Virus record (IMG/VR): IMGVR_UViG_3300008450_000468
Location: 1-23,473 of that record
Origin: a virus
Strand: one strand, 5' to 3'
DNA length: 23,473 bases
Within the stretch, counting starts at the first letter, position 1. Every line of letters starts with the position of its first letter. This document shows positions 3,031-6,718 of the stretch, piece by piece. Below the pieces are notes generated by a model, which ran no database searches, was not told the DNA's origin, and worked only from the letters and a program-made list of their open reading frames with translations. The position numbers and the translations under genes are program-made.

Positions 3031-3894
3031 ATGCCAACAGTTAACGATCAATACCCAATCAAGCCACAACATCAAATGTCAGATGAAGAATTAAAAATGG
3101 CCGCAATAGCACAATATACTAACTCTGCACCAGAAGCTAAAACATCAACATTCCCAACAGAAATTGTAGAACTTCCTAGTCGTGGATTATTATACCCAGA
3201 CGGACATGCATTACGTTCAGGTAAAATTGAAATGAAATACATGACAGCTAAAGAAGAAGATATACTTACCAATCAAAGTTATATCAAGCAAGGCGTGGTA
3301 TTGGATAAACTGTTTCAATCTTTAATTGTAACACCAGTAGATTATGATGATTTGCTTATTGGCGATAAAAATGCCGTAATGGTAGCAGCTCGTATTTTAG
3401 GTTATGGTAAAGATTATGAAACTGAAGTGGTAACACCTTCCGGTAACAATCAAAAAATTACTGTTGATTTAACTAAATTATCAGACAAAGAAATTGATGA
3501 ATCTTTATATACAGCTGGTAAAACGACATTTGATTTTCAACTACCAGCCAGTAAGCGCATAGTAACAGTGCAATTGGTTACAACTCGTATACAAAAGAAA
3601 ATAGACGCGGAACTTAAAGGTTTAGCAAAACTCAAGCAACAGGATTCCACTTTAACTACCATGCTCAAGCATGTAATAGTTGCATTGGATGGAGAAACAG
3701 AGCAATCTAAAATACGTAGATTTGTTGACTCAGAATTGCTAGCCATTGATTCTCGTGCCATCCGCCAATACATTAAAACCATAACACCTGATATTGATTT
3801 GAGTTATGAGTTCACTGATGAGGAGGACGGGGAGCCCTTTCGTCGTTCGATTACCATCGGATTGGACTTTTTTTGGCCTGACGCAAACCTATAA
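3031..3894 (+). CDS. 26: gp26-like baseplate hub / tail assembly protein
   Basis: This 287-residue protein resembles the T4 gp26 / T4-type baseplate protein family. The best-matching region is ELPSRGLLYPDGH (residues 47-59) with the following KIEMKYMTAKEEDIL block, a pattern seen in that family. The protein is helical in the middle and ends FFWPDANL. It sits between the tail tube and tape-measure genes, where many phages encode tail assembly chaperones. A reading frame in +1 (3806-4120) overlaps its last 89 bases, and both frames read through a run of seven Ts at 3868-3874. A fraction of ribosomes may therefore shift and make a longer fusion of about 362 residues. The start is the ATG seven bases after AAAGGA. 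The family call is good; its exact role (hub part or chaperone) is uncertain. Confidence 0.82.
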   Translation: MPTVNDQYPIKPQHQMSDEELKMAAIAQYTNSAPEAKTSTFPTEIVELPSRGLLYPDGHALRSGKIEMKYMTAKEEDILTNQSYIKQGVVLDKLFQSLIVTPVDYDDLLIGDKNAVMVAARILGYGKDYETEVVTPSGNNQKITVDLTKLSDKEIDESLYTAGKTTFDFQLPASKRIVTVQLVTTRIQKKIDAELKGLAKLKQQDSTLTTMLKHVIVALDGETEQSKIRRFVDSELLAIDSRAIRQYIKTITPDIDLSYEFTDEEDGEPFRRSITIGLDFFWPDANL

Positions 3895-4120
3895 AGTACA
3901 ATTACATGATCAAGTATTTGATCTAGTTTATCATGGTAAAGGATTCACTTATCATGAAGTGTACTCAATGCCAGTATATCTACGGCAATTCTATGTAAGA
4001 AAAAGTCAGCATATCTATTCTGAGGAAAAAAGGCGCATGAAAAGTCTATACGTGACGCCAAAAGCAAACAACCTAAAAAACCTAACATTAGACGTTAATA
4101 GATATTTATTAGAAATATAG
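3806..4120 (+). CDS. gp51-like downstream frame, probably reached by frameshift from the gp26-like gene
   Basis: The convincing part of this frame begins after the T-run (GLTQTYKV...). It contains VYHGKGFTYHEVYSMPVYLR, a segment like T4-type gp51 baseplate-hub assembly proteins and tail chaperone extensions. The first 23 residues, before the T-run, overlap the gp26-like gene and look like shadow translation. The only in-frame starts before the conserved part are the ATGs at 3806 and 3818. Neither has a ribosome site, and no start codon follows until the methionine inside the conserved segment. Either translation starts at one of those ATGs, or ribosomes slip +1 at TTT-TTT-T and join residue 281 of the upstream product to 81 residues of this frame. 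The next gene follows seven bases later. The function is assigned by context and motif, with moderate confidence. Confidence 0.7.
   Translation: MSSLMRRTGSPFVVRLPSDWTFFGLTQTYKVQLHDQVFDLVYHGKGFTYHEVYSMPVYLRQFYVRKSQHIYSEEKRRMKSLYVTPKANNLKNLTLDVNRYLLEI
3868..3874 (+). other. T7 homopolymer, candidate +1 ribosomal frameshift site
   Basis: In the gp26-like frame this reads TTT TTT TGG. A +1 slip of the Phe tRNA on TTT re-pairs perfectly and continues as GGC CTG ACG in the gp51-like frame. A -1 slip would stop after two codons at TGA (3879). A sequencing indel in the homopolymer would give the same appearance, so the raw reads matter. Confidence 0.5.
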
Positions 4121-4127
4121 GATATCT

Positions 4128-4370
4128 ATGAATAAATTAGAACGTAAAGCATATCAGCAAATTAATCTTAATGAAGGATTGGTTTCAGTAATAGCTAAGT
4201 TTTTTCTAGGTGGTAAGTTTCGCAGTGCCATGTCTGAGTTAGAAAAGATGAAAAAAGATGACCCAGAGTTAAAAGCCGGGCTAGCTAGTTTTTACCAAAA
4301 TTATAAGCTGTTAAGAAAAGATTTAGAAGATATTTGCGCAAAATATCCTCATTTTCCAAGTTGTAAATAA
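4128..4370 (+). CDS. Small helical protein upstream of the tape measure
   Basis: I do not recognise this 80-residue protein as a named family. It appears largely helical. A hydrophobic patch lies at residues 18-28 (GLVSVIAKFFL), followed by a charged stretch (KMKKDDPELKAGL) and a C-terminal coiled-coil-like helix ending in YPHFPSCK. It can be aligned without large gaps to the 84-residue product at 2736-2990, so the two may be paralogs flanking the gp26/gp51-like pair. It starts seven bases after the gp51-like stop, with AGGA upstream, and ends five bases before the tape-measure gene. That spacing argues for co-translation and a role in tail assembly, which is inference. Confidence 0.78.
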   Translation: MNKLERKAYQQINLNEGLVSVIAKFFLGGKFRSAMSELEKMKKDDPELKAGLASFYQNYKLLRKDLEDICAKYPHFPSCK

Positions 4371-4375
4371 GTATC

Positions 4376-6718
4376 ATGGCAGAAACTTATACTAAAGAAC
4401 AATTAGCTTTATTAGCGGAAGCGCAAAAAATGTCGAGGCTTATCGGCATTGATATGGAAAAACAAGCTGATATTCAAGCTGAAATTTTATCTGGCATTAT
4501 ACAAAACAAAGCACAATTACGTGAACAACTTGAAATAGTTAGAAAACATCTTAAGGAAGAAAAAGATCTGTTAAAAACTAAACAGGAGCAAGAAAAAGCA
4601 GCAGAAGATTATGCAGAGGTATTACAAAGTTCATTGACGCCGTTAAATAAAATGAAAAAAATATCAGCTGATACTTTACAAAAAGATATACAGAAAATAG
4701 ATAAAGCATTAGAACTTGAACAAATTACTAAAGATCAAGCAGATAGATTAAAACAGCAGTTAGAAACAATAAATAAAATAGCATCAAATCCAATTGCAAA
4801 AGTAGGATTTACGAGCGCCGTTGATACACTAGATTCCATGCAAAGTAGTATTAATGACTTTATGAAAAAGTTACCCGGCGGAGAAATGTTATCTAAAGCT
4901 TTGGGATTAGATAAACTAAGTGAAAAAATACAAAATTCAATACTCGAGGGTGGCAAATTAGGTATAGTCGGAGTAATTGCGGTAGCTGGTATTTTATATG
5001 CAGTATTATCAAGTATAACAAAAGAAGCAAGAGAATTTGCAACTGCTACTGGAGTAACATATGGCCAAGCCCGGCAAATTGCAGATGAGGCTAGAAAAGC
5101 TTCTTTAAGCTATAATAATCAGCTAGCAACCCAGAAAGATATATTAGCAGTACAACAAGAAACTATTAAAGCATTTGGTACTACTGCTATGTTAACCGGA
5201 GAGCAAGCTGCTAATGTAGCTGATTTAGGTAAATCATTTGGATATGGAGCACAACAAGCTGCATCGGTAAATAATGCATTTATGTCAATGGGCGCTACTG
5301 CTACAACAGCATATGAAGCGCAACAAAGTTTAGCAGCTGAAGCACTTAAGGCCGGCGTTAATGTAGGAGCAGTAACAAAAGATATTGCAGAAAATTCAAA
5401 ACAAACGGCTAAATACTTTGGAGGCAATGTTCAAGCCCTAAAAGACTCAGCAATACAAGCTGCAAAAATGGGCATGACATTAGATACCATGGCCAAGATA
5501 TCTGATAAGTTACTTGATGTACAAAGTAGTTTAACCGCACAGTTTGAATTTCAAGCGTTATCAGGTCGTCAAATTGATTTAGATTTAGCGCGTCAACTAG
5601 CACTTGAAGGTGATATTGCAGGAGCTGCTAAAGAAGTATTAAACGCAGTTGGTAGTACGGCTGAGTTTAATAGCATGAACATGCTTCAACGTAAAAAATT
5701 AGCCGAAGCTGTTGGAATGGAAGTTGATGAACTACAGCGATCATTGGTTATTCAAGAAAAGTTAGGCGATTTAACCGAAGATCAAAAAGCTGCTATGTCA
5801 GGATTAAATTTATCAGCAGCTGAACTAAATGATAAAACGCCTGAACAATTACAAGCTTTGTTAGCTCAGCAAGATGCTTTAATGAAAGCAGAATCAACCT
5901 TTGATAATATAAAATCACAGTTGTTAGTAGCATTAGTACCAGCGGCCGAAATGTTTGCTAGTGCAATTGCTGGTATTATGCCAATATTCAAATTAATGAA
6001 ACCAGTATTAATAGTTATTGGTAAATTAGTAGAAAGTATTGTTGCTCCGTTTAAATTCTTAGGAATGATAATTGATTATATACAATCTGGTATTGACTTG
6101 ATGAGCCAAAAGTTTTCTTTCCTAGAGCCTGTTATTAATGGTATTAGTACAGTATTTAGTTTTATATTTGATGTATTGTCATCAATTGGAGGCGTCTTGG
6201 GAGGAGTTTTAATTCCATATTTAACGTTGATGGCTGGAAAGGCAGTAGTAGGAGCATATAGAATGGTAGCTCAAGCAATTGCTGGTATATTTACTAGTTT
6301 CTCATCATATCCGTTTGGTGTAGGAATTCCATTAGCATTTGGAGTAGTTGGTGGTTTAACTGCTTTGATAAGCAAATTTACAACTAAAACTGGTGACTTG
6401 GCAATGCCATCCGGCGGTGGCCCTATAGTTACCAATCCACGAGAAGGAACAATATTCCAAGGAACTAAAAACGACGAAGTTGCCATGGGTCCTGGTGTTA
6501 TTGGAATGGCTCAACAATCTGGTACTGGTACTCAAACGGTTGTTAATAACGGTAGTAATACTGATATGACTGAAACTAACAACTTATTGCGTCAGTTATT
6601 AGGTAAGCAATCTGTTGCAGTTATCAATTGGGGTGATCGTGACACAAGTACATTAGGTAATAAATTAAAAGCAAATGATTCGTTTCGTACATCATATAAC
6701 GGGGGATATTCATCATAA
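4376..6718 (+). CDS. Tail tape measure protein
   Basis: This is the tape measure, which spans the tail tube lumen and sets its length. The evidence is the 780-residue length, the long charged coiled coil at residues 1-135, a hydrophobic segment at 196-214 (IVGVIAVAGILYAVLSS), an Ala-rich helical middle, and two large hydrophobic regions at about 515-570 and 593-665. A Gly-rich C-terminus follows (MPSGGGPIVTNPREGT near 680). Such hydrophobic blocks in a long helical protein are characteristic of tape measures. It lies directly after the tail chaperone-like genes, the standard position. T4 gp29 is shorter (590). By the usual rule of about 0.15 nm per residue, the tail would be near 115 nm. The stop codon shares its last base with the start of the next gene (TAATG). 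Confidence 0.9.
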   Translation: MAETYTKEQLALLAEAQKMSRLIGIDMEKQADIQAEILSGIIQNKAQLREQLEIVRKHLKEEKDLLKTKQEQEKAAEDYAEVLQSSLTPLNKMKKISADTLQKDIQKIDKALELEQITKDQADRLKQQLETINKIASNPIAKVGFTSAVDTLDSMQSSINDFMKKLPGGEMLSKALGLDKLSEKIQNSILEGGKLGIVGVIAVAGILYAVLSSITKEAREFATATGVTYGQARQIADEARKASLSYNNQLATQKDILAVQQETIKAFGTTAMLTGEQAANVADLGKSFGYGAQQAASVNNAFMSMGATATTAYEAQQSLAAEALKAGVNVGAVTKDIAENSKQTAKYFGGNVQALKDSAIQAAKMGMTLDTMAKISDKLLDVQSSLTAQFEFQALSGRQIDLDLARQLALEGDIAGAAKEVLNAVGSTAEFNSMNMLQRKKLAEAVGMEVDELQRSLVIQEKLGDLTEDQKAAMSGLNLSAAELNDKTPEQLQALLAQQDALMKAESTFDNIKSQLLVALVPAAEMFASAIAGIMPIFKLMKPVLIVIGKLVESIVAPFKFLGMIIDYIQSGIDLMSQKFSFLEPVINGISTVFSFIFDVLSSIGGVLGGVLIPYLTLMAGKAVVGAYRMVAQAIAGIFTSFSSYPFGVGIPLAFGVVGGLTALISKFTTKTGDLAMPSGGGPIVTNPREGTIFQGTKNDEVAMGPGVIGMAQQSGTGTQTVVNNGSNTDMTETNNLLRQLLGKQSVAVINWGDRDTSTLGNKLKANDSFRTSYNGGYSS

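Follow-up and report, generated by a model that had tools for sequence, protein, structure and literature searches.

The window analyzed here, i.e., the whole stretch of 23,473 nucleotides (positions 1 to 23,473 of IMG/VR record IMGVR_UViG_3300008450_000468), contains on its plus strand two overlapping reading frames that lie downstream of a gene for the tail tube (2177-2665; match to phrog_4542 tail tube protein, E 9e-26) and upstream of a probable tape measure gene (4376-6718, 780 aa), and the same order is found in cultured relatives. The family search of the window gave no match for the product of 4376-6718, which was assigned by position and length; a tape measure is annotated at the same place in Flavobacterium phage immuto, Bacillus phage SP-15 and Listeria phage LIS04. 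The first of the overlapping frames, ORF1 (3031-3894, 287 aa), is assigned as a gp26-like, putative short tail assembly chaperone (TAC-N) on the basis of the open reading frame, a match to phrog_150 and a structural model. It overlaps with ORF2, which lies in the +1 frame, at GAC TTT TTT TGG CCT (3865-3879), where a run of seven T (3868-3874) directly follows a C at position 3867. From 3865 onward the 0-frame codons of ORF1 are GAC TTT TTT TGG CCT GAC GCA AAC CTA, followed by the stop codon TAA (3892-3894). The +1 frame is open as far as TAG at 4118-4120 and thereby provides an extension (3875-4120; the putative TAC C-domain, similar to the C-terminus of gp51) of 81 codons plus stop; the -1 frame of the window closes shortly past the ORF1 stop. 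With TTTT read as one step, the junction becomes ...GLDFF/GLTQTYK... and translation of the predicted frameshift fusion (TAC-NC, 3031-4120) gives 362 aa, in agreement with the preliminary description, which had predicted about 362 residues. The slip site had been placed at 3868-3874, which holds for the T-run, while the slippery codons TTT TTT TGG, on which tRNA-Phe can re-pair with UUU one base downstream, run from 3868 to 3876. The locus is flanked by two small ORFs (2736-2990 and 4128-4370) that resemble one another (28% over 60 aa, E 6e-7) and perhaps go back to a duplication. A tRNA gene was looked for in the window and none was found.

With regard to protein identity, ORF1 matched phrog_150 (baseplate hub) with an E-value of 1.5e-11, and among 40 members of the ORF1 family 39 matched the same phrog and 32 the Pfam family T4_baseplate. 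In hhalign comparisons, the ORF1 family aligned with gp26 from T4, KVP40 and Bellamy (E 5.6e-9) and the extension with the gp51 C-termini from these three phages (E 4.3e-7); a profile of the fusion family gave a weak score against T4 gp51 alone (E 0.09). Judged by these alignments, ORF1 is homologous to T4 gp26 and the extension to the gp51 C-terminus. Thus, of the gp26-like and gp51-like frames proposed initially, the former is borne out and the latter applies to the C-terminal part only: the second frame is not equivalent to a whole gp51, and what it matches is just the C-terminal part of gp51 in T4 and, in cyanophages and KVP40, the short gp51. Within T4, gp26 and gp51 have a common N-domain (E 2e-6). 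A search by sequence for a solved structure found none. The model of ORF1 (pLDDT 89) yielded the HK97 TAC 2OB9 as top Foldseek match in the PDB, with a weak score (E 0.24), and VIA-align placed YqbN (3KLU, Z 6.0), a phage tail chaperone relative, and 2OB9 (Z 5.2) on top, again with weak scores. The extension, modelled apart from ORF1, is predicted to form a helical hairpin. In PMC3004832, T4 gp26 and gp51 figure as hub assembly chaperones. The position of the locus, its gp26/gp51 homology and the TAC structures among the top, albeit weak, PDB matches all favor the tail-chaperone role that had been suggested before.

An IMG/VR search with the ORF1 protein revealed at least about 600 relatives, the best 80 of which were kept, and the set was then widened by searches with the protein from Flavobacterium phage immuto and with a distant huge-phage protein to 111 nonredundant loci. 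Of the best 80 of the at least about 600 relatives, every one (80/80) has a T-rich site at the same place with the ORF1 stop close by, which is much more than chance would produce, and the overlap at the T-run between tube and tape measure, noted beforehand for the window, is likewise present in all 80. Alignment of the relatives, in which the ORF1 stop lies 5-13 codons from the first slip codon, thus confirms that both overlap and T-rich site are kept. The +1 arrangement was found in 109 of the 111 nonredundant loci. These loci are related and not independent of each other; still, when clustered at 60% identity, a re-pairable codon pair is kept in 29 of 29 clusters. A scan with the 14-mer TTTTTTTGGCCTGA returned 120 contig stretches, nearly all of them representing the ORF1-type gene, and in 172 unique loci bearing the motif it is followed by a +1 frame that stays open for 55-104 codons. 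The sole exception is relative L026 (about 4817), in which the slip site is kept, yet the +1 frame closes after 18 codons. MAG contigs of bacteria and archaea contribute eight more loci with the same site and overlap, and the isolates Mel-JY01, immuto, SP-15 and RM378 share the same frame relation. Altogether, the family constitutes a large group of mostly uncultured, contractile-tailed phages.

Substitution rates in the extension of the relatives amount to 0.13, 0.08 and 0.35 for the three +1 codon positions, and this third-position excess shows that the extension evolves like a coding region read in the +1 frame. The statement that the second frame lacks a usable start proved correct, as the ATGs at 3806 and 3818 are not preceded by a ribosome site, are not conserved and are absent from relatives such as L004 (64% identical), in which the frame is nevertheless retained. 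In some loci, a +1-frame stop is situated one codon before the site. Could ORF2 nevertheless be a separate gene with its own start, e.g., at 3806 or 3818, possibly served by translational coupling? Such a proposal can draw on the two ATGs of the window, on a +1-frame start with an SD-like tract upstream in 18 of 109 loci and on two relatives, L300 and L306, that feature the extension as a separate ATG-started frame. It conflicts with start positions that are not conserved and with the 37 of 109 loci whose +1 frame, followed from where it opens to 5 codons beyond the site, contains no ATG, GTG or TTG at all. Moreover, in L300 and L306, whose separate start is of the kind that had been named as contrary evidence, the slip site is eroded (TTC TTG TAT or TTC CTT TGG CCA), so that they represent a small natural control. 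We therefore consider a separately started ORF2 very improbable.

In 109 of 109 loci, codon 1, codon 2 or both allow the P-site tRNA to pair again after moving one base downstream, in full accordance with the earlier observation that both frames pass through TTT TTT TGG and that tRNA-Phe re-pairs after a +1 slip. The most frequent sites are TTT TTT TGG CCT (n=63) and TTT CTT TGG CCT (n=23), followed by the rarer TTT TTT TTC, TTC TTT TGG, GCT TTT TGG, CTT TTT TGG, TTT CTA TGG, TTT CTA TTC, TTT CTT TAC, TTC TTT CGT, TTT TTT CAC and TTT TTT AGT. The window site fits a slip at either codon, the TTT CTA variants fit a slip at the first codon only (UUU to UUC), and TTC TTT TGG as well as GCT TTT TGG fit a slip at the second codon only (UUU to UUU). 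Where codon 2 specifies Phe it is always TTT (82 of 82), and where it specifies Leu it is CTT in 24 of 27 loci, although CTT accounts for 19% of Leu codons. The TTT bias by itself is not decisive because TTT reaches 76-93% in other conserved Phe columns and the site is only modestly higher. The base before the T-run is C in 84 and T in 3 of 109 loci, compared to a third-base background of 10% C and 38% T. In the window, the C at 3867 rules out a U_UUU_UUU -1 heptamer, which a T at this position would create, and the combination of a T before the run and a -1-frame extension, i.e., the -1 U_UUU_UUN type of cyanophages and KVP40, does not occur there.

The variety of sites also bears on further explanations for the fusion. 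Slippage could occur during transcription, with RNA polymerase dropping one base in the T-run and a normal ribosome reading the fusion, and the run of seven T in the window and most relatives would suit this mechanism. However, the junction is kept in loci with runs of just 3-5 T (TTC TTT TGG, GCT TTT TGG, TTT CTT TGG, TTT CTA TGG, TTC TTT CGT), and the bacterial slippage covered in PMC5009743 takes place on stretches of 9 A or T, which renders transcriptional slippage as improbable as a separate start of ORF2. The short-run variants also argue against a -2 shift into the same frame, as in phage Mu: on TTT TTT TGG a -2 slip along the T-run re-pairs too, but the tRNA is mismatched in TTC TTT TGG, TTT CTT TGG and TTC TTT CGT, where a +1 slip re-pairs, and we rate this possibility lower still. 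An assembly or sequencing error in the T-run that splits a single gene, as might be feared for error-prone homopolymers, is already refuted by conservation, the two frames being arranged alike in many independent assemblies as well as the four isolates. A conserved +1 programmed frameshift that gives rise to two tail assembly chaperones, one short and one long, is therefore by far the best explanation, and we hold it with high confidence.

Possible stimulators were sought upstream and downstream of the site. In the relatives, SD-like 5-mers are strongly enriched upstream at about -48 and at -33 to -28; one occurs within 60 nt of the site in 77 of 109 loci, and an SD-like purine tract at -30 is present in 40 of 109 loci vs. 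0.4% per position elsewhere. In the window, this Shine-Dalgarno-like tract is GAGGAGG (3820-3826). Where Glu-Glu is encoded at the tract it is mostly specified by GAG GAG, a combination used elsewhere in 13 of 192 cases. Spaced about 25-48 nt upstream (3820-3834 in the window; -50 to -25 from the site when relatives are included), the tract is too far away for an RF2-type effect and fits no known stimulator. Its interpretation as ribosome site of ORF2 was rejected, as a +1-frame stop separates tract and slip site in 26 of the 61 loci with a tract at -40 to -20. RNAalifold on 28 loci predicted no pairs that would indicate a conserved RNA structure around or after the site, and downstream folding falls only marginally under that of shuffled sequences (mean z about -1). 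In L044 and L056, inspection by eye suggested a stem joining the G-rich tract upstream to CUGACGCC downstream, which was discarded because complementarity within the own locus equals that between loci. Neither an SD at RF2 spacing nor a stimulatory RNA structure was thus found in the loci compared. Stimulators are common, not obligatory, for +1 programmed ribosomal frameshifting.

Based on these data, the following sequence of events is proposed. Most ribosomes would finish ORF1 at its stop and produce the short, gp26-like chaperone TAC-N, while a fraction would pause around UUU UUU UGG, where peptidyl-tRNA-Phe would advance by one base to another UUU that pairs just as well (in some relatives UUC); in other relatives, tRNA-Leu may slip from CUU onto UUU. 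Translation would continue in the +1 frame and add about 80 residues homologous to the T4 gp51 C-terminus, resulting in TAC-NC. If lambda gpG/gpGT serves as a model, the tape measure protein would be covered by many copies of the short form and few of the long one, and these would bring in the subunits of the tail tube, such that the efficiency of the frameshift would set the ratio of short to long chaperone.

The designation of the source as a T4-type phage needs qualification: it is a distant relative of T4, whereas classical T4-likes have a -1 site or separate genes. NNT TTT TTC is located before the last codon and stop of the gp26 gene in KVP40, Bellamy, Syn19, MED4-213, ACG-2014j and CC2, and close variants of it are present in phiM7 and XG4. 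In these phages the gp51 piece resides in the -1 frame, which fits the report that cyanophage gp51 has only about 20% of the normal length (Sullivan et al., 2010, PMC3037559). The canonical U_UUU_UUC -1 heptamer just before the gp26 stop in cyanophages, KVP40 and CC2 was seen in L314, L315, L325, L326, L328 and L331, the annotations of which appear without a joined gene. The -1 sites of T4-likes are probably already known: according to PRFect (PMC10885494), Vladimirov et al. (2022) showed that in some T4-likes a short gene occurs together with a longer, fused one, and the same work is cited in a 2025 paper (PMC12846349) with regard to -1 signals of the poly-T kind in chaperone genes of T4-likes. 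In the literature consulted, where Vladimirov et al. (2022) is represented by these citing papers, we found no mention of the +1 family. While tail-chaperone frameshifting itself is known, its +1 form on a gp26/gp51-type pair seems to be a new variant.

Taken together, we think it fairly likely that lineages have switched, on one orthologous gene pair and at the same Phe-Phe codons, among +1 shifting (UUU_UUU_UGG and alternatives), -1 shifting (U_UUU_UUC), separately started genes and the two genes of T4, with the base before the run (C vs. T) marking the direction. Tail-chaperone frameshifting has been reviewed as conserved in long-tailed phages "except T4" (PMC5009743). If such switching took place, T4-likes would not lack it and T4 would be the derived exception. 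A widespread family of far-T4 phages seems to have retained it as a +1 shift and without an obvious stimulator. Simple conserved +1 sites are uncommon in bacteria, and the family therefore offers many natural variants for testing forward slipping. Annotation can be corrected as well, as the gene annotated for the extension is truncated or misplaced in Mel-JY01, immuto, SP-15 and RM378 (L206 4824-5060, L207 4836-4946, L312 3321-3440, L313 3201-3377).

Among established systems, lambda gpG/gpGT resembles the window locus in its position upstream of the tape measure, its late shift site and the fact that one gene supplies a short as well as a long chaperone; it differs in that lambda shifts -1 and the window locus +1, on a gp26-type protein. 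Shifts of +1 in tail genes are known from HSTV-2 (PMC5009743) and from actinobacteriophages, for which PRFect counts 350 forward sites (PMC10885494), and what they have in common with the window locus is the +1 direction in a tail gene. The prfB (RF2) site CUU UGA C shares the +1 slip of a P-site tRNA, and the Flavobacterium clade has CUU UGG C, with the sense codon UGG instead of a stop and without an SD at RF2 spacing. The influenza PA-X site UCC UUU CGU is matched by UUC UUU CGU C in Streptococcus phage GXN1; the genes are unrelated and the likeness is convergent. The two parts of the window locus are homologous to T4 gp26 and to the C-terminus of T4 gp51, respectively, tail assembly chaperones according to Vladimirov et al. 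(2022) as cited in later papers; however, in T4 these are two divergently transcribed genes that do not use frameshifting, as opposed to one overlapping locus in the window, and T4 gp51 has its own N-domain. The gp26 genes of cyanophages and KVP40 have the same gene pair and the same Phe-Phe just before the gp26 stop, but there a U_UUU_UUC heptamer is present and the extension lies in the -1 frame.
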